Source: Halalkalirubrum salinum (lineage in GTDB: Archaea; Halobacteriota; Halobacteria; Halobacteriales; Haloferacaceae). From it: 64,000 bases of DNA. The notes under the pieces were generated by a model. That model was not told where the DNA came from. It worked only from the letters and a program-made list of their open reading frames with translations, and made no database searches. The translations under genes and the position numbers were made by a program. Positions 36,785 to 47,638 of the stretch are shown here, piece after piece; position 1 is the first letter of the stretch; each line of letters begins with the position of its first letter. The stretch is from contig NZ_SRSG01000058.1 in NCBI RefSeq assembly GCF_005543295.1, positions 1 to 64,000 on the forward strand, read 5' to 3'.

Positions 36785-36808
36785 CCCCTTTATTTCAACT
36801 GGAACTCT
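36785..36808 (-). promoter_or_regulatory. ORB-like element between cgi121 and tRNA-Gln
   Basis: On the minus strand the bases read GTTCCAGTTGAAATAAAGGG and one more G. This matches the origin ORB core at 42022-42051 (GTTCCAGTTGAAACAAAGGG) except for one C-to-T change. It is the same orientation as the left origin ORB. The function is unknown: it may be an Orc1-binding site away from the origin. Confidence 0.6.
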
Positions 36809-39679: not shown

Positions 39680-40016
39680 TGACACCCTCCCGATGGTCGA
39701 TCGAGTGGACGCATGTCCAAAAGTGCGATGTACTCGGTCATGCGCCACCGTAGCGCGGGCAATCAGATAACGTTGTCCACTTGTCCAACGGTTGCCGATT
39801 CCACAGGTTCCGGCCTTGCGGTTACAAAAGTGGAGACAACTGATTTCGATTGGTTACATTCCTACCGATCAACAGTCGTATTTGATACACTCAATCTATA
39901 ATTGGCAGTTTCCAACTTTGAGCCCCTTTATTTCGACTGCAAACCACCATCCTTCGAGATACTACCTCTCGAGTAGGTGCACAAGAAACAAAGGAATAAA
40001 TAGAGAAACGAGCGCG
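39680..40016. other. Intergenic region with an ORB-like site, no gene seen
   Basis: The region lies upstream of lysC and downstream of oapC. Short frames in it do not look coding. The base composition turns AT-rich from 39830. The only clear element is the ORB-like sequence at 39923-39944, listed separately. Confidence 0.4.
39923..39944 (-). promoter_or_regulatory. ORB-like element upstream of lysC
   Basis: The minus strand reads GTTTGCAGTCGAAATAAAGG and GG, similar to the origin ORB core TTCCAnnnGAAACAAAGGGG. It shares the AAATAAAGGGG variant with the site at 36785-36808. No GC-rich G-string follows. A possible Orc1/Cdc6 binding site. Confidence 0.5.
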
Positions 40017-40688
40017 TCACTCCCGATCGGTAACGCCCCACGCATCCGGTACTTCGATGACATATCTCCCGTCTTCACGCAGGGAGATAATGTACTCATC
40101 ACGATCGTACAACTCCATGAGATTAATCTCGTACTGGCCAGGATTGAGAATTTTGATGCTCTCAAACTGTTCGTTTAGTTCGTTTCTGAGTTCTTCAATG
40201 TCCGGACGATCACCACCAGCGTCATCGGCGACGGGGGCGTCAGTATCTGTTTCGTGAGGTTTTGCAGCCTCGATTTCGGCAGGGGAGACGACATCAGATC
40301 GAGCGCTTGCCTGAGCGGTATCTTCTTTGGAAGTGCCAGATTGTGATTGTTTCTCCGAACTGCCGGGTTCGGTTGAGCGATCCGATCGACTAGAACTAGA
40401 ATCATTGTCACTCCGGGAGGAAACAGGAGTGTCGACGGTATTCATTCCGGCTGGTGGTGGATCCTGTGGGGGGGCAGGTGTCTGAGCTGATGAAGTGGTT
40501 GCACTGGAAGATTGGGTTTGCGGCGAGCCAGAAGATTCAGACTGCGGCGAGCCGGAAGATTCAGTGAGATCGTCGATCGATCCAGGATGAAATTGAAACT
40601 TATTTCCACCACAGTCTGGGCAGCCAGATAACATCTCTTTTGAGCCGTCGGGAAACGTGCGGGAGCAGTTGGTACACTGATGAGGCAT
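40017..40688 (-). CDS. oapC: Origin-associated zinc-ribbon protein OapC
   Basis: 223 residues. An N-terminal zinc ribbon (HQCTNCSRTFPDGS, LSGCPDCGGNKFQF) is followed by a long Ser/Gln/Asp low-complexity linker (about 40-150) and a conserved C-terminal domain (FESIKILNPGQYEINLMEL, YIISLREDGRYVIEV). It belongs to the oapABC set found beside orc1 at haloarchaeal origins. Its role in replication is not defined. It starts four bases after oapB, last in a three-gene leftward operon. Confidence 0.85.
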   Translation of the reverse strand: MPHQCTNCSRTFPDGSKEMLSGCPDCGGNKFQFHPGSIDDLTESSGSPQSESSGSPQTQSSSATTSSAQTPAPPQDPPPAGMNTVDTPVSSRSDNDSSSSRSDRSTEPGSSEKQSQSGTSKEDTAQASARSDVVSPAEIEAAKPHETDTDAPVADDAGGDRPDIEELRNELNEQFESIKILNPGQYEINLMELYDRDEYIISLREDGRYVIEVPDAWGVTDRE

Positions 40689-40692
40689 CGTT

Positions 40693-41097
40693 CTATTTGC
40701 GTGAAACGAGTGCGCTGATCAGCGTCTCGTCTTTATGCAATGTCTTGATCTGGTTCGCCGGGCCAATAACGGTGAGTTTTTTTGTCGACTCCCGACCCAT
40801 AATTCGATCGAGAAGGCCCTTGGTGGCTGCCTGTGTGCTTGGATACGTCTCGATTTCGAGTCCGGTGAACCCGTCAGGGTTGATTTCCGACATTGTCACC
40901 TCGATAAGCCGAGATTCCTCTTCGGGTGACAATCCTTCTTCAAGAATGACAATTTTTCCGTCTCGGACGCTGTCGAGGATGAGCCGAATTTTTTCCATAC
41001 TTGCGAGTCCATCCATCCGAGCACCGCTTATTAGGTCGATCTGAACACCTTCATCGGCCGATGCACTGTCGTTGTTTGTGGGTTTCGCTTCAGGCAT
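40693..41097 (-). CDS. oapB: Origin-associated DUF2073 protein OapB
   Basis: 134 residues of the DUF2073 family. Motifs are VQIDLISGARMDGLASMEKI, IRLILDSVRDGKIVILEEGL and LTVIGPANQIKTLHKD. In euryarchaea DUF2073 genes are linked to GTPases of the Era type. Here it overlaps oapA by one base (TAATG) and precedes oapC. It probably interacts with OapA. The biochemical activity is unknown. The conserved position next to the origin suggests a role in DNA metabolism. Confidence 0.88.
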   Translation of the reverse strand: MPEAKPTNNDSASADEGVQIDLISGARMDGLASMEKIRLILDSVRDGKIVILEEGLSPEEESRLIEVTMSEINPDGFTGLEIETYPSTQAATKGLLDRIMGRESTKKLTVIGPANQIKTLHKDETLISALVSRK

Positions 41098-41738
41098 TAT
41101 CCGAAGTACTCCGCGATCTTGTCGTATACTTCATCCATGTTATTCCCCTCAAGGGCCGACAGCGGAACCGTTTCGTGCTGTGGGAATGCGTTTGCGACCT
41201 GCTGGACGTTTGCGTCTTCGAGATCGGTTTTGTTCGCGAAAATGAGAACCGGGAGGTCACGACTTTCGATGATTCCGATTAACATCGTATTAACCTGCGT
41301 GAACGGGTCCTGTGTCGAATCAAGCACATAGATCACGCCGTCGACGTCTTCGCGGAGCCAATGCATCGCTTCGGCAACACCTTCTGTCGCCTCGCGCGAT
41401 CGGCGAACTGCGTCCTCTTTTTCCATATCGTGATCAAGAAACTCCTTATAATCGACTTTCGTCGTGACTCCAGGAGTGTCAACGACGTCGATTGTCACCG
41501 TCTGGTTATTGCGCTCAATCGTGACGTTCTCTTTGCGACGTGCACGACGAGTTTCGTGTGGAATATGACTTTCAGGACCGACGGTATCTCCTGCCCAATC
41601 GATCGCGATCCGGTTTGCGAGTGTCGTCTTGCCTGCATTTGGCGGCCCATAGATTCCAATGCGTTTTGGTTCACTGTCGGCAAACAGCCGATCGGTTACT
41701 TTTGAAATGCTGTCTTTGAGATTTGTAAGTAGACCCAT
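41097..41738 (-). CDS. oapA: Origin-associated Era-like GTPase OapA
   Basis: 213 residues from ATG 41738 (MGLLTNLKDSISKVTDRLF). The frame stays open to 41819, but those residues precede the conserved start. GTPase motifs are G1 YGPPNAGKTTL, G3 VDTPGV and G4 FANKTDLED. It lies directly beside the replication origin, divergent from orc1. Its upstream region runs into the origin, so its promoter may respond to origin firing. The function is unproven. It is the first gene of the oapA-oapB-oapC operon. Confidence 0.92.
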   Translation of the reverse strand: MGLLTNLKDSISKVTDRLFADSEPKRIGIYGPPNAGKTTLANRIAIDWAGDTVGPESHIPHETRRARRKENVTIERNNQTVTIDVVDTPGVTTKVDYKEFLDHDMEKEDAVRRSREATEGVAEAMHWLREDVDGVIYVLDSTQDPFTQVNTMLIGIIESRDLPVLIFANKTDLEDANVQQVANAFPQHETVPLSALEGNNMDEVYDKIAEYFG

Positions 41739-41913
41739 CCTGACCTCCCGCGCCTCCCTGGCGTCCGGTCGATCGGACGGCTGGAGGGCGTATACGCCTA
41801 TCTTCCACTCTGTGCACACTTAAGTACTACGTCAGACGTGGGAAATCAGTCCCTAATTACTGGTTTTGACTCTTGTAGTCCCAAATATATCTGGATCAGA
41901 AACAGCTGTCCGC

Positions 41914-41938
41914 CGAGGGCAGCTTATCACGGCCCTCG
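41914..41938. other. Hairpin in the origin region
   Basis: Inverted repeat CGAGGGC (41914-41920) and GCCCTCG (41932-41938) with an 11-base loop. It lies between the oapA promoter and the ORB elements. Confidence 0.6.
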
Positions 41939-41982
41939 CTTCGTTCGATCTCCGTGTTGCTGTCTCCCACGGTGTGTTCGTA

Positions 41983-42006
41983 ATATAGTCCCGAGCGGGA
42001 CTATAT
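41983..42006. other. Near-perfect 24-bp palindrome beside the origin
   Basis: ATATAGTCCCG (41983-41993) and CGGGACTATAT (41996-42006) are exact inverted repeats around a two-base centre. It lies 16 bases left of the first ORB. It could be a cruciform or protein-binding site. Confidence 0.75.
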
Positions 42007-42021
42007 CGAGAGTACTGTCGC

Positions 42022-42051
42022 CCCCCACCCCTTTGTTTCAACTGGAACACG
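42022..42051 (-). promoter_or_regulatory. Origin recognition box, left copy
   Basis: The minus strand reads GTGTTCCAGTTGAAACAAAG then GGGTGGGGGG. It has the dyad TTCCAnnnGAA and the trailing G-string of haloarchaeal ORB elements. It is inverted relative to the right copy, so the two G-strings point away from the AT-rich part. Confidence 0.9.
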
Positions 42052-42086
42052 AACAAATAGACAACCCGGATAGTCTCGAGAAGTAT

Positions 42087-42213
42087 TTATCGCTATTTTT
42101 CTAATAAAAATAAGAATATATTATTACGTAATATACTATCTTCCTGTGACGCGGTTACTGTTATACAGTATATTATATAAAATTTTCTCAATTAAATACA
42201 AACAGCGATATAA
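42087..42213. other. AT-rich DNA-unwinding element
   Basis: About 125 bases of strongly AT-rich DNA (for example TTTTTCTAATAAAAATAAG and TTATATAAAATTTTCTC) lie between the inverted ORBs, in contrast to flanking GC-richer sequence. Position and composition fit the unwinding element of oriC. Confidence 0.8.
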
Positions 42214-42232
42214 TTCGACCCTCTCTTGGAGA

Positions 42233-42264
42233 GTGTTCCACCCGAAACAAAGGGGTGGGGGGTG
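42233..42264 (+). promoter_or_regulatory. Origin recognition box, right copy
   Basis: It reads GTGTTCCACCCGAAACAAAG followed by GGGTGGGGGGTG. It matches the left copy over the dyad, the AAACAAAGGGG block and the G-string. It is oriented toward orc1. Confidence 0.9.
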
Positions 42265-42453
42265 AGATATGTCTGTGAGTGTACCAAATCAATTCGTCTG
42301 TACTATCCACATACCAACAGATAGATAAGTAACACTTTTGTTGGTCGTGTTCGTCTGGTTCGACTGCATCACGTGGAGTCACCGTCTACTAACGAATTCG
42401 GAAAACGCTGTATTAATCGGTAAAATCGACGAGTATCGGTTCGCTGCCGAAAA

Positions 42454-42477
42454 GCTCCACTTGAAACAAGGGGGTTG
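42454..42477 (+). promoter_or_regulatory. ORB-like element upstream of orc1
   Basis: GCTCCACTTGAAACAAGGGG and GTTG lies 18 bases before the orc1 ATG. It is slightly shorter in its A/G block than the main ORBs. Binding of Orc1 here could give autoregulation of the gene. Confidence 0.65.
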
Positions 42478-42494
42478 TCCGCTCCTGGGGGAAT

Positions 42495-44321
42495 ATGACC
42501 GACAACGATACAAAAGACGACGATACGCCGCCTCCGAGCTCTGAACAAGAGTCTTCACAATCGCGCAATACCACCGTAGATACAGTCATGCAAGATATCG
42601 ATGAATCAGGCGATCCAGATAAATCCGACCGAATCAAACCTGATGAAGATATCGAGACGTGGATGGGTCAACAGAGCGATACTGGGGGAGAAGACACTGA
42701 GACTGGTGATACTGGCGACTCAAACACGACGGAGACCGATATCATAGACAGCTTAGAGACTGCGAAGACCGATGTCATAGATACCTCAGAGACTGATGTC
42801 ATAGATACCTCAGAGACTGGCGTGAATAATTCTCCTAAAACAGATACCAGCCGCAGTCGGGATCGATCCTCGACCAGATTCGATTTTAACAAAATGTTAG
42901 AGACCGACGAGGAGTCTGAAAACAAAGGATTGTTCGACGATCTCCTTGCGGGTGAACCGATCTTCGAAAATAAAGAAGTCCTTCGTCCCTCCTACACCCC
43001 TCACGAGTTACCGCATCGGAACGACCAAATCAACCAGATGGCGACAATTCTCGTCTCTGCGCTCCGCGGAGAAACGCCATCCAACATTCTCATCTACGGC
43101 AAAACGGGAACCGGCAAAACTGCGAGTGCAAAGTTCGTCAGCCAAGAGCTCGAATCGACGTCACAAAAATACGACGTTCCATGTGAGGTCCAGTACATCA
43201 ACTGCGAGGTGACTGACACCCAATACCGCGTCCTCGCACAACTCGCGAATAAGATTATCGAGCAGAACCGGGCGGCGATCGAATCACGGCTCGAGTATCT
43301 CACCGACCGTCTTGCTGCAACGACTGAGGGTACAGATTTCGATACCGTCGAGTTCGATCGGATCGATCGATCGTTTGACTCTCGACAGGCTCTCGAGGAG
43401 CGGATCGACGAACTTGAATCCGATCGTGCTGACATGGAACCTGTGCCGATGACCGGCTGGCCAACCGACCGGGTGTATTCAACGTTCTTTGACGCCGTCG
43501 ATTATCGTGAACGTGTTGTCGTTATTATGCTTGATGAGATCGACAAACTCGTCGAAAAGTCTGGCGACGACACACTGTATAATCTCTCGCGGATGAACTC
43601 TGAACTGATAAACTCTCGGATCTCGATTATGGGGATCTCAAACGATCTCAAGTTCACGGACTTTCTGGATCCACGGGTCAAATCATCACTCGGCGAAGAG
43701 GAGATCGTGTTTCCGCCCTACGACGCGACCCAACTCCGAGATATTCTCCAACACCGCGCGGACATTGCATTCAAACCCAACGCGCTCTCAGACGACGTCA
43801 TTCCGCTCTGTGCAGCGTTCGCCGCCCAGGAACACGGTGACGCCCGGCGGGCGCTCGATCTGCTCCGAACCGCAGGTGAACTTGCTGAGCGAGACCAACA
43901 AGACACCATCGTTGAATCCCACGTCCGACAGGCACAGGACAAGATTGAGCTTGATCGCGTCGTCGAAGTTGTCCGTACGCTGCCAACCCAATCGAAGATT
44001 GTCCTGTTTTCGATCATTCTGCTCGAAAAAAATGGAGTCCACAATATCAACACGGGTGAGGTGTTCAACATCTACAAGCGTATCTGTCAGGAACTCGACG
44101 CAGATGTGCTCACGCAGCGCCGCGTAACTGACCTCATCTCTGAGTTAGATATGCTCGGGATCGTCAACGCGGTTGTCGTCTCGAAGGGTCGCTACGGTCG
44201 GACCAAAGAGATCAGTCTCTCGGTGCCGATCGACGAGACGGAGGCTGTCCTCCTGTCTGATTCACGACTTGGCGATCTTGACAACGTTCAGCCGTTTGTT
44301 CAAGCGCGCTTCGATAACTGA
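42495..44321 (+). CDS. orc1: Origin recognition protein Orc1/Cdc6
   Basis: 608 residues. An acidic N-terminal extension of about 150 residues contains 8-residue repeats (DVIDTSET, DNA units of 24 bases at about 42765-42820). The AAA+ ATPase has Walker A YGKTGTGKTAS (about residue 200), Walker B VVIMLDEIDKL and sensor 1 IMGISNDL. A C-terminal winged helix (TGEVFNIYKRICQELDADVL and VTDLISELDMLGIV) binds ORBs. The finger-like insertion at about 255-305 is unusually long. It initiates replication at the adjacent origin and recruits MCM. It is separated from oapA by the origin itself. Confidence 0.97.
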   Translation: MTDNDTKDDDTPPPSSEQESSQSRNTTVDTVMQDIDESGDPDKSDRIKPDEDIETWMGQQSDTGGEDTETGDTGDSNTTETDIIDSLETAKTDVIDTSETDVIDTSETGVNNSPKTDTSRSRDRSSTRFDFNKMLETDEESENKGLFDDLLAGEPIFENKEVLRPSYTPHELPHRNDQINQMATILVSALRGETPSNILIYGKTGTGKTASAKFVSQELESTSQKYDVPCEVQYINCEVTDTQYRVLAQLANKIIEQNRAAIESRLEYLTDRLAATTEGTDFDTVEFDRIDRSFDSRQALEERIDELESDRADMEPVPMTGWPTDRVYSTFFDAVDYRERVVVIMLDEIDKLVEKSGDDTLYNLSRMNSELINSRISIMGISNDLKFTDFLDPRVKSSLGEEEIVFPPYDATQLRDILQHRADIAFKPNALSDDVIPLCAAFAAQEHGDARRALDLLRTAGELAERDQQDTIVESHVRQAQDKIELDRVVEVVRTLPTQSKIVLFSIILLEKNGVHNINTGEVFNIYKRICQELDADVLTQRRVTDLISELDMLGIVNAVVVSKGRYGRTKEISLSVPIDETEAVLLSDSRLGDLDNVQPFVQARFDN

Positions 44322-44346
44322 CTGCCAGTAGTCTGTGTCCTTTATG

Positions 44347-44390
44347 TGGCTGTACTGTTTGCTTTGTCTGGCTGTACTGTTCCCTTTGGG
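44347..44390. repeat. 22-bp direct duplication between orc1 and signal peptidase
   Basis: TGGCTGTACTGTTTGCTTTG and TGGCTGTACTGTTCCCTTTG are two copies, 22 bases apart, located just before the convergent end of the signal peptidase gene. Confidence 0.7.
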
Positions 44391-44396
44391 TTGGGA

Positions 44397-45344
44397 TTAC
44401 CTGCGAGGTTTCTGTGCTTCCGGTCGTCTCCCAATTGCCGGCCAGAGTCCGCCGACGATCGCGATCGTCGACAGCGGCACGGTCGGCCCCAACACGGTTT
44501 GGCCGGTAAATGCGAGGCGGATCCACCCGAGATACGGGATCCGAAGCCGGGCGATTCCGGTGATCCATTCGGCATCGACGACCGGTGCAACGCCGTTGAC
44601 TTGATCGTAGGCGCCGTTGTTATCGCCCTTGGTGATGTAGCCGTCTCGGGGGGCAGGACAGGTTTCGAGGTCCTCACAGTCACGGCCGTTTGTATACCGA
44701 TCATCGGCGGTTTGGACCCAGTTTTCTCCGCGATCGACACTGAAGTGTGGACGGTGGATTACGGGTGGGCCAACTCCGCCTGGCTCGTCAAATACGATAA
44801 CCGACCCGGGATTATTGAACGACGTGTACTCGCTCGCCTCCCCCTCTCGATAGGTTACGATTCCGTGTTTATCCGCGGAATCGGGTGTGAGTCGCCCGGG
44901 CTCGGTGACCAGCACAAGATCGTACGTTTTGATGTTTGGCTCCATGCTCCCGCTTTCGATCGCCACCATTGGAGGCCAGACACCGCTGATTCCAAAGAGC
45001 AATCCACCAATCAGCAGTACAATAATAACGCTCAGTAGGATCTCCCTGAGGAACACTAATGGCCCTTCATCCGCGTGGTAGAGCCTGTAGATTGGATTTT
45101 GCGAGCGAGAATCTGTCTGTTCGCTCTTCACTCGTGGCGTATTGTCGTTTAGCGGGGTTCGCTCGCTGTCACCGATCTGATCCGAAGCTTTGCTAGCGGT
45201 AGATAATCGCTCTTCGTCTACAGACGAGTGCTCCGTATCCACAGTTGATTGATCACTGGGGAGATCGTTTGGAGGTCGACCGGTTCGGTTGTCTGAGCCG
45301 GTCCTCTCGGACGATCGATCGGACTGTTCGTCCCCTCCACTCAT
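44397..45344 (-). CDS. sec11: Signal peptidase I (archaeal S26B type)
   Basis: 315 residues from ATG 45344. The frame also has a TTG at 45407 that would add 21 residues. After an acidic Ser/Asp-rich cytoplasmic part comes a membrane helix (ILLSVIIVLLIGGLLFGISGV). The catalytic Ser is in AIESGSMEPNI, the His in VIHRPHFSV (archaeal His in place of Lys), and the aspartates in YITKGDNNGAYDQV. A second hydrophobic segment follows near the C-terminus. It removes Sec signal peptides. Synteny of orc1, signal peptidase and PolD small subunit is typical of haloarchaea. Confidence 0.93.
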   Translation of the reverse strand: MSGGDEQSDRSSERTGSDNRTGRPPNDLPSDQSTVDTEHSSVDEERLSTASKASDQIGDSERTPLNDNTPRVKSEQTDSRSQNPIYRLYHADEGPLVFLREILLSVIIVLLIGGLLFGISGVWPPMVAIESGSMEPNIKTYDLVLVTEPGRLTPDSADKHGIVTYREGEASEYTSFNNPGSVIVFDEPGGVGPPVIHRPHFSVDRGENWVQTADDRYTNGRDCEDLETCPAPRDGYITKGDNNGAYDQVNGVAPVVDAEWITGIARLRIPYLGWIRLAFTGQTVLGPTVPLSTIAIVGGLWPAIGRRPEAQKPRR

Positions 45345-45410
45345 TGATGACTCTTCTTGATCGCCAGCTTTCAACCTTCTGTCTCCACTCTGTGACTGGT
45401 CGCTCAATCG

Positions 45411-45491
45411 TTTTCACCGAGCCGGGTCCCGCTATCATTTTCACCGAGCCGGGTCCCGCTATCCTTTTCACCGAACCGATACCATACTATC
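45411..45491. repeat. 27-bp tandem repeats in a divergent promoter region
   Basis: Three units of TTTTCACCGAGCCGGGTCCC and GCTATCA lie at 45411-45437, 45438-45464 and 45465-45491 (the third diverged). They lie between the divergent signal peptidase and PolD small subunit genes, abutting the GTG start at 45495. They could duplicate promoter elements of one or both genes. Confidence 0.9.
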
Positions 45492-45494
45492 GAT

Positions 45495-47189
45495 GTGCCT
45501 TCGGAGACGCCTGTGAGCATCGTACAACAGTTAGCCCTCCACGGATACAACGCCGATCGTGACGCCGTAACAGTACTGTCTCGAACCGATGAGCCACAGC
45601 TCGCGGTCGAAGCTGTCGTTGAGGCGATTGACGACGACGTGCTCCGCATTACCGTTGAGGACGTACGATCGATCCTCGAGACCGACCCAGTTTCGGATCC
45701 ACCGCAGCTTTCGCCAGCATCTACCGAAGCGGTGCAGCCGACCGATTCTCCAGTCGAAACAAAGGGGGTTACAGCACGGTCCACATCCGAACGAAGTGAT
45801 CGAGTTACCGAAGCTAATCCCAAGAGCGACCAAGGTTACGTGAACCCCACTGGTGATTCGTCTGATCGGTCTCTCGGTAATTCGTCTGATCACTCTCCCG
45901 GTAATTCGTCTGATCACTCTCCCGGTAATTCGTCTGATCACTCTCCCGGTAATTCGTCTGATCGGTCTCCGAGGGATTCCTCACAGCGATCGCTCTCGAT
46001 TACAAACGACATGACTGGTCGAAGCACCGGCACCGGCGAGTACAAGGAGTTCGTTCGGACCTTTCGCGACCGCTATGAGCGGCTCTCGAAGCTTCTGAAG
46101 ACCCGAGTCAACCATCGACCAGCGACGGCGATCGAGACGATGCCTGGCGGAAGTGAAGCCGAGATGATTGGACTCGTCAACGACATTCGATCAACAAAAA
46201 GTGGTCATTGGCTTATCGAACTTGAAGACACTACGGGGACGTTTCCGTGTCTCATAACGAAAGACAAGCCGATCGCCGAGTTGGTTGCGGAGTTACTACT
46301 CGACGAATGTGTCGCGGTACAGGGTCGGCTCTCCGACGACGCAGGCATTCTCTTTGTCGATTCGCTCCACGTCCCTGACGTGCCGCGGACCTACCGTCCG
46401 AGCACGGCCGATCGCCACGTCCAGGCCGCGCTCATTTCGGATGTCCACGTCGGCAGCCAGGAGTTCATGGCCGAGGCGTGGCACCGCTTTACCGACTGGC
46501 TTCACACCGACGAAGCCCAACATGTCGAATACCTCCTCATCTGCGGCGATATGGTTGAGGGCGTTGGCGTCTATCCAAACCAAGACGAAGAGCTCGATAT
46601 CATCGACATTTACGAGCAGTACGAACAGTTTGCAGAATATCTCAAAGAGGTTCCCGGAGACCTCGATATCGTCATGATTCCCGGTAACCACGATGCGGTC
46701 CGACTCGCGGAGCCACAGCCGGGATTCGACGAGGAACTCCGATCGATTATGGATGTCCACGATCCGAAAATCGTCAGCAACCCTGCGACCGTGACGATCG
46801 AAAACGTCTCGATTCTCATGTACCACGGCATCTCTTTGGACGAGGTCATTGCCGAACTCCCCGAGGACAAAGCGAGCTACGACGAGCCACACAAAGCAAT
46901 GTATCAGCTACTGAAAAAGCGCCATGTTGCGCCCCAGTACGGCGGCCGAAACCGGCTCGCACCCGAAACGAAAGATTACTTAGTTATTGATTCGATCCCG
47001 GATATCTTTCATACCGGTCATGTTCACAAACTCGGGTGGGGCAAATACCACAATGTGCTCGCCGTAAACAGCGGCTGCTGGCAGGCCCAAACTGATTTCC
47101 AGCGGAGTGTCAACATTGACCCTGATTCTGGCTACGCACCGATTGTCGATCTCGATACCCTGGATATGACCGTTCGAAAGTTCGTTTGA
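45495..47189 (+). CDS. polB: DNA polymerase D small subunit (DP1, exonuclease)
   Basis: 564 residues. An N-terminal helical domain is followed by a long Ser/Asp/Gly linker (about 60-170) with 8-residue repeats, an OB-fold (GTFPCLITKDKPIAEL to LFVDSLHVPDV), and the Mre11-like phosphoesterase. Its motifs are ISDVHVGSQEF, ICGDMVEGVGVYPNQ, IPGNHDAVRLAEP and FHTGHVHKLG. It supplies proofreading exonuclease to PolD, with the large subunit encoded elsewhere. The start is GTG at 45495. GTG 45513 is an alternative. An ORB-like sequence occurs inside the linker-coding part (45746-45770). Confidence 0.95.
   Translation: MPSETPVSIVQQLALHGYNADRDAVTVLSRTDEPQLAVEAVVEAIDDDVLRITVEDVRSILETDPVSDPPQLSPASTEAVQPTDSPVETKGVTARSTSERSDRVTEANPKSDQGYVNPTGDSSDRSLGNSSDHSPGNSSDHSPGNSSDHSPGNSSDRSPRDSSQRSLSITNDMTGRSTGTGEYKEFVRTFRDRYERLSKLLKTRVNHRPATAIETMPGGSEAEMIGLVNDIRSTKSGHWLIELEDTTGTFPCLITKDKPIAELVAELLLDECVAVQGRLSDDAGILFVDSLHVPDVPRTYRPSTADRHVQAALISDVHVGSQEFMAEAWHRFTDWLHTDEAQHVEYLLICGDMVEGVGVYPNQDEELDIIDIYEQYEQFAEYLKEVPGDLDIVMIPGNHDAVRLAEPQPGFDEELRSIMDVHDPKIVSNPATVTIENVSILMYHGISLDEVIAELPEDKASYDEPHKAMYQLLKKRHVAPQYGGRNRLAPETKDYLVIDSIPDIFHTGHVHKLGWGKYHNVLAVNSGCWQAQTDFQRSVNIDPDSGYAPIVDLDTLDMTVRKFV
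45746..45770 (+). promoter_or_regulatory. ORB-like element inside the PolD small subunit gene
   Basis: TTCTCCAGTCGAAACAAAGG and GGGTT agrees with the origin ORB core (TTCCAnnnGAAACAAAGGGG) at nearly all conserved positions. It lies in the codons of the low-complexity linker, where protein constraint is weak. It is about 3.5 kb from the main origin. Confidence 0.6.
45852..45971 (+). repeat. 24-bp coding tandem repeats in the DP1 linker
   Basis: Five units of about 24 bases (GGTAATTCGTCTGATCACTC and TCCC) encode NSSDHSPG repeats. The three central copies are the same. The frame is kept since the unit is eight codons. Confidence 0.9.
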
Positions 47190-47209
47190 TCGCTGCTTTT
47201 CGACGCTTA

Positions 47210-47638
47210 CTACGGGTCGAGGCGATACCTGATCGTTTGCGTCGTCTCGAACATCGGGCCAGGACCGGCGTTTTTGAATCCTGCTTGCTCTGCGGCCCCT
47301 TGTAGCGTGTCCCGTTCGGTTTCAACGAGTAGCTCAACGGACATTCCTTCGCGTTCGGCAAATCGGATCGGTTCACGAAGCAGCTGTACACACGCCGATC
47401 GCTGTCCACCAAACTGCGTGATGTGGACCGTTTGATCTCGTGCATCAAAACTCACAAACCCGAGAAGTGATGCCCCCGTATCGCCTGCGTCCGTGTTGGG
47501 ATCACTTGCGCGTGTGTCGTCGTCAGCGGCGACCCGGACTGTTCTGTCGTGGACGAGGTTCCGCATCACGTCGACTGGCGAATCAGCGATCGCAGCTAGC
47601 GCCTCGGCGTCGGCTTCCACTGCGTCACGAATATCCAT
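47210..47638 (-). CDS. GNAT-like acetyltransferase-fold protein
   Basis: 142 residues from ATG 47638, giving MDIRDAVEADAEALAAIADS. This is the usual opening of a GNAT domain. The central beta strands (GFVSFDARDQTVHITQFGG) and the C-terminal AERE...VETERDTLQGAAEQAGFKN fit the fold. The canonical acetyl-CoA loop Q/RxxGxG/A is not clear, so activity is uncertain. An in-frame ATG at 47656 would add six residues. It is convergent with the DP1 gene with about 20 bases between. Confidence 0.7.
   Translation of the reverse strand: MDIRDAVEADAEALAAIADSPVDVMRNLVHDRTVRVAADDDTRASDPNTDAGDTGASLLGFVSFDARDQTVHITQFGGQRSACVQLLREPIRFAEREGMSVELLVETERDTLQGAAEQAGFKNAGPGPMFETTQTIRYRLDP

Follow-up and report, generated by a model that had tools for sequence, protein, structure and literature searches.

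A class-wide ORB element inside the DNA polymerase D small-subunit gene of haloarchaea: a candidate docking site for Orc1 outside the origin

The polB gene of haloarchaea, which encodes the small subunit (DP1) of DNA polymerase D (PolD), carries within its linker region an ORB word of the kind found at the replication origin oriC1. That this is a selected DNA element, and one present class-wide, is beyond reasonable doubt. It is best read as a non-origin docking site through which Orc1 may control the expression of polB, its own availability, or both. Orc1 is likely to bind the polB ORB, and we hold this with good confidence; control of polB by Orc1, the predicted output, we put at slightly under an even chance.

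The intragenic ORB and its neighbourhood

The window is a stretch of 64,000 nt from Halalkalirubrum salinum (contig NZ_SRSG01000058.1, positions 1 to 64,000). The features relevant here are:

36785..36803, minus strand: ORB-like word TCCAGTTGAAATAAAGGGG, 2 mismatches, 5.2 kb left of the origin
39923..39941, minus strand: weaker ORB-like word TGCAGTCGAAATAAAGGGG, 3 mismatches, intergenic, 2.1 kb left of the origin
42028..42046, minus strand: oriC1 ORB, left arm, with extended G-string; fits TCCANNNGAAACRAAGGGG with 0 mismatches
42237..42255, plus strand: oriC1 ORB, right arm, with extended G-string; fits TCCANNNGAAACRAAGGGG with 0 mismatches
42456..42474, plus strand: ORB 20 nt before the orc1 ATG; one mismatch to TCCANNNGAAACRAAGGGG
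42495..44321, plus strand: orc1, the presumed binder, with AAA+ and Cdc6_C winged helix (Cdc6_C 109.9 bits)
45495..47189, plus strand: polB, PolD small subunit DP1, 564 aa (Pfam DNA_pol_E_B PF04042, 53.6 bits; Metallophos)
45684..45701, minus strand: weak candidate for a worn remnant of the other (minus) arm, GAC CCA GTT TCG GAT CCA
45749..45767, plus strand: intragenic ORB core TCCAGTCGAAACAAAGGGG in the DP1 linker, plus arm of the haloarchaeal pair

The stretch at 45746-45770 on the plus strand, TTCTCCAGTCGAAACAAAGGGGGTT, comprises the core with three 5' bases and GTT, and lies 254 nt into the ORF 45495-47189, between the N-terminal part of DP1 and its OB/phosphoesterase core. Across the ORB core (45749-45767) the codons T-CCA-GTC-GAA-ACA-AAG-GGG are in frame with polB and encode the peptide PVETKG. 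The first-pass annotation of this DNA held that the site is as near to the ORB core as the origin copies are, and this is borne out. There are 0 mismatches to TCCANNNGAAACRAAGGGG (TCCA-N3-GAAAC-R-AAGGGG), i.e. the core is that of an oriC1-type ORB, and of its 19 positions TCCAGTCGAAACAAAGGGG shares all but one with the left origin ORB (42028-42046, minus) and all but two with the right (42237-42255, plus). After the polB core comes GGTTACAG, so the site has no extended halophile G-string, by which we mean a run of five G right after the core.

A search of the 3,416,214-base genome with the pattern TCCASYYGAAACAARGGGGK (≤3 mismatches) returned nine matches, and the reversed-pattern control one. 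Four matches genome-wide are exact, namely both origin ORBs, the one preceding orc1 and the polB site; the ambiguity letters of TCCASYYGAAACAARGGGGK were picked to cover these four, and therefore only the tally of other matches is informative. There are just five of these, and the next best two (2 and 3 mismatches) lie in the window, left of the origin. The genome-wide scan proposed with the initial annotation to estimate chance occurrence has therefore come out in favour of the site: its three exact companions all belong to oriC1 or orc1, which is not a random scatter.

Several other features of this neighbourhood can be recorded. The words at 36785-36803 and 39923-39941 are oriented with the G-rich end facing away from the origin, just as words on its right side are, and exact ORB words occur 1.8-2.3 kb left of their own origins in three other loci (L012, L020, L023). 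Neighbouring genes at 40017-41097 (minus) match Pfam OapB and OapC, which are named origin-associated proteins. Three 27-nt direct repeats (45398-45478) lie in the gap from which polB and its upstream neighbour, a minus-strand gene, diverge. Just 3' of the ORB site the DP1 linker contains a 24-nt tandem repeat (45852-45982), in which the peptide GNSSDHSP recurs and which makes the linker longer in the window species.

Conservation and selection at the level of DNA

An ORB word (≤3 mismatches, either strand) is present in the first 600 nt of DP1 in 79 of 80 named haloarchaeal loci, these being the best 80 of 231 confirmed; one locus, L013, has none. Conservation in related polB linkers, another check set out beforehand, thus gave a strongly positive result. 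Every one of the 23 genera named in these 80 loci has an arm with ≤2 mismatches, and in 21 a plus arm with ≤1 is present, with genus names taken from record titles, one of which (L078) seems mislabelled. L078 is titled Halobellus captivus and falls within Halorubrum on the DP1 tree, which could reflect a mislabelled record, contamination or transfer.

The pattern first used ended in RAAGGGG, and its second R was widened after GGAGGGG had been seen in many DP1 sites, giving TCCANNNGAAACRRAGGGG. With this pattern, the best plus-strand word in 81 genes (including the window polB) has 0, 1, 2, 3, 4 and 6 mismatches in 42, 20, 12, 5, 1 and 1 genes respectively; relatedness among the loci means that these counts cannot be taken as independent events, and the near-random spacer between paired arms (see below) serves as an internal control.

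Beyond the named loci, 148 genomes of the phylum were covered, 145 of them with a match, and 60 loci were fetched, 20 halobacterial and 40 others. An arm with ≤2 mismatches occurs in 18 of the 20 further halobacterial loci, some of which come from species identical or almost identical to those of named loci, as zero-length tree branches show. The exceptions show that the DP1 site is dispensable somewhere, since one lineage (G112, locus L104) has none and L109 has only a 3-mismatch word. None of the 40 DP1 genes called non-haloarchaeal by kinship and identity has a word with ≤3 mismatches (best 4), and many of these loci with orc1 nearby have ORBs there, none of them within DP1. This speaks against an ancient archaeal feature, but the N-terminal region is shorter in these genes (median 262 vs 556 nt) and therefore leaves less room for the word.

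Conservation of this kind could arise if the linker peptides P-x-E-T-[KE]-G and P-x-V-S-T-G were kept for protein function, with the DNA word as a by-product, and all hits in the 80 DP1 loci do indeed fall in a single reading frame. The codons, however, point elsewhere. Synonymous codons were shuffled within each gene, preserving protein and codon usage, and the match was destroyed: a plus site with ≤1 mismatch is present in 62/81 genes, compared with at most 2/81 in any of 200 shuffled sets, and only 0.3% of shuffle trials gave 0 or 1 mismatch. The unwidened pattern behaves in the same way (49/81 genes vs 0.07% in shuffles).

Sites were also chosen by peptide alone (P.ET[KEGR]G and P.VSTG), and codon use at each was set against that elsewhere in its gene; the peptide patterns, which select 56 and 17 sites, were written after the sites had been seen. 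At the P.ET[KEGR]G sites, CCA is used in 55/56 (4.2 expected), GAA in 56/56 (14.2) and GGG in 55/56 (12.0), and at the P.VSTG sites of the opposite arm GTT, ACT and GGA are each used in 17/17 (1.0, 1.0 and 1.8 expected). All six are minority codons within their own DP1 genes, CCA, GTT, ACT and GGA most markedly. Rare codons are retained where the peptide has no need of them, and the same ones recur at free synonymous positions in nearly every species. A protein motif as the sole cause is refuted by these counts and by the shuffles, and we regard it as extremely improbable.

ORB words were also counted by zone in 61 of the 80 loci, the others having no orc1 match or lying too near a contig end. 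Words with ≤1 mismatch number 132 at the origin, 50 at the orc1 start and 62 in the first 600 nt of DP1 (in 50 loci), with none in the rest of DP1 and six in 360 kb downstream; the reversed pattern gave none in any zone of the 61 loci. Chance resemblance in a low-constraint linker has nothing in its favour after the comparative test. It is refuted by the genome census, the conservation across named loci, the codon bias, the zone count and the shuffles, and its probability is vanishingly small. The interpretation offered in the first-pass annotation holds in part, in that the site has a true ORB core, is not one of many random matches, and is under DNA-level selection in the DP1 linker.

Arm geometry, classes of ORB and distance from oriC1

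Many DP1 genes have a second ORB, on the opposite strand and upstream of the first, with both pointing outward. Both arms (each with ≤3 mismatches) occur in 48 of 101 genes, and the distance from arm start to arm start is 57 nt in 40 of the 48 pairs (54 nt in four, 69 nt in two and 72 nt in two). In 36 pairs, the first arm lies 206-497 nt from the start codon and the last arm 82-277 nt from the GTGEY motif. At the 57-nt spacing the spacer is 38 nt long, with a mean GC of 0.62 compared with 0.65 for the gene, and over these 40 pairs its mean pairwise DNA identity is 0.34, as against 0.79 and 0.77 for the arms, with a spacer peptide identity of 0.15. A spacer that is constant in length and drifting in sequence would be expected for two protein-bound sites of set geometry.

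On the DP1-core tree the two-armed state is found in Natrialbaceae, Haloarculaceae, Haladaptataceae, Natronomonadaceae and Haloferacaceae, and because it spans these five families the inverted layout is probably ancestral. The minus arm is missing from most Halorubrum, from Halonotius and Halohasta, and from the window genome and its nearest relative Natronocalculus. The window polB has one arm only: the best minus-strand match in its first 600 nt has 6 mismatches, and in the candidate remnant at 45684-45701 GTTTC stands 66 nt before the GAAAC of the plus arm.

Inverted arms could pair as reverse complements in the transcript, forming an mRNA hairpin. Five variable positions agree between the arms in 140/240 comparisons vs 113.6 in shuffled pairs, but shared descent gives the same excess and the shuffle cannot tell the two apart. 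At the 14 core positions, departures affect one arm only 94 times and both arms 7 times, about half of DP1 genes retain one arm, and there is no Rfam match in 41000-47500. A hairpin is disfavoured on all three counts and is highly improbable.

The outward inverted arms also resemble oriC1, with which the polB element shares the same 19-nt core TCCANNNGAAACRAAGGGG, and the pair might therefore serve as an origin, whether cryptic or auxiliary, or as a site of helicase loading, and start replication under some conditions. However, the polB pair differs from haloarchaeal oriC1 ORBs in being intragenic, in having a 57-nt rather than an about 200-nt spacing, and in having neither an AT-rich spacer nor the extended G-string that is reported to be essential at oriC1 of Haloarcula hispanica in the available text of PMC3936714. 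Since the spacer is so short and nearly gene-like in GC, it holds no unwinding element, and many lineages, the window genome included, have one arm only. Origin activity of the site is accordingly quite improbable.

The G-string separates the ORBs into classes. It follows 120 of 142 origin ORBs, 3 of 90 plus arms of DP1 and 3 of 45 minus arms. A plus ORB (≤2 mismatches) lies upstream of orc1 or in its early part in 61 loci. Its end is 0-19 nt short of a possible start codon in 52 and 20-39 nt short of one in three, the other six having no such codon downstream; only one of the 61 has the extended G-string. This placement suggests that Orc1 may regulate its own gene. The orc1-start ORB and the polB site are alike in being a single core, plus with respect to the gene and lacking the extended G-string, and differ in that the former has a promoter or start-codon position whereas the latter lies 200-550 nt into the gene. 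The GGAGG part of the orc1-start ORB could overlap a ribosome-binding site.

The reader of these words need not be Orc1. Haloarchaea have many Orc paralogues, with 6-49 matches per genome, and G is commoner two bases after GAAAC in DP1 arms than in origin ORBs, so that a paralogue or another DNA-binding regulator might read a similar word. Against this, the 14 fixed core letters of the DP1 words are those of the oriC1 ORBs in the same loci, and a different binder appears unlikely.

The polB site need not be part of oriC1 itself. Sixteen loci have no orc1 match, and 13 of the genomes were searched; three (L033, L070, L086) were set aside, since upstream of DP1 their contigs run for no more than 2.2 kb. 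DP1 shares a contig with oriC1 in 11 of the 13, its site being 12.4 to 130.4 kb away; as to the remaining genomes, G012 is fragmented and G013 has DP1 words with more than one mismatch. The best DP1 arm has ≤1 mismatch in 12 of the 13 and 2 in one, and the 13 genomes represent at least four branches of the DP1 tree. Retention far from oriC1 in several branches means that adjacency to orc1 or oriC1 is not needed. The site had originally been described as lying in a linker 3.5 kb from the origin; the linker location stands, and the closeness to the origin proves not to be required. That first description overlooked the inverted pair with its 57-nt spacing and the absence of the origin-type G-string from this class of site.

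Control of polB and titration of Orc1

If Orc1 docks at the polB element, two molecules would bind the two-arm form facing away from each other, and one would bind in the window genome. Orc1 placed on polB 200-550 nt downstream of the start codon may slow or block polB transcription, the orc1-start ORB may act likewise on orc1, and the supplies of initiator and of replicative polymerase would then both answer to the same Orc1 level. This regulatory reading depends on the polB and orc1-start ORBs sharing one class, the autoregulation of orc1 being itself presumptive. A point against control of polB is that a site deep within a gene is an unusual position for a repressor. The fuller proposal, that Orc1 docks on its own gene and on the DP1 gene via a class of ORB without the G-string, so coupling initiation to polymerase supply, with the two-armed element kept since the class ancestor, is a little more tentative again.

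The DP1 ORBs might instead act as an initiator sink, holding Orc1 away from oriC1 and leaving polB expression unaffected. DP1 sites would replicate early after oriC1 fires, their number would double and free Orc1 would fall. Among the exact ORB words that 19 genomes carry outside DP1 and outside the origin (taken with 2 kb on each side), 15 of 20 are within 60 kb of oriC1 vs 0.8 expected, as are 11 of 44 one-mismatch words vs 1.5 expected, with origin and DP1 positions set by hand from the listed hits. Such clustering is as compatible with a general Orc1 sink as with control of polB; it points to a wider supply of potential Orc1 sites close to the origin, and keeps the sink reading alive. A one-mismatch word away from oriC1, TCCAGACGAAACAGACGGG, is identical in four genomes (G001, G003, G004, G006) and perhaps lies in a conserved gene.

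There is a precedent for such a sink in oriC2D of H. hispanica, an ORB-rich region downstream of cdc6E without origin activity of its own, which, in the available text of PMC3936714, lowers the activity of oriC2, with titration of Cdc6E proposed and two ORBs sufficing for a moderate effect. The polB element is like oriC2D in having ORBs outside the origin and presumed initiator binding without origin activity. The two differ in that oriC2D has 11 ORBs clustered in intergenic DNA at a different origin, beside its cdc6, whereas the polB element has one or two ORBs within a gene and does not need to be close to orc1; initiator sites outside the origin are thus present, as judged by their sequence, and a dense cluster is not. 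Nor does a sink alone explain the fixed 57-nt spacing, and one genome keeps its pair 130 kb from oriC1. We therefore regard a sink that leaves polB untouched as doubtful. A broader parallel is offered by DnaA boxes outside oriC, with datA of Escherichia coli and dnaA autoregulation cited in the same source (PMC3936714); these too are initiator sites away from the origin that serve titration or gene control, but they are bacterial and their initiator is unrelated, so the likeness is one of logic only.

No report of an ORB inside polB was found by title or by the start of the abstract, in a search that took in few subscription papers, and the accessible portions of PMC3119063 and PMC4441112 make no mention of a site in polB. 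Motif searches confined to the intergenic regions flanking orc/cdc6 genes, the search space described in the available text of PMC3528665, would miss conserved initiator sites of this kind.

The element bears on how archaea control initiation and match it with the supply of polymerase, being class-wide and lying in a gene of the replicative polymerase. The bases of the polB arms can be recoded with no change to the protein, so that control of PolD by Orc1, or titration, is directly testable in Haloferax or Haloarcula. If the docking and control proposed here are true, Orc1 would be a regulator that links the initiation of replication with polymerase supply in haloarchaea.
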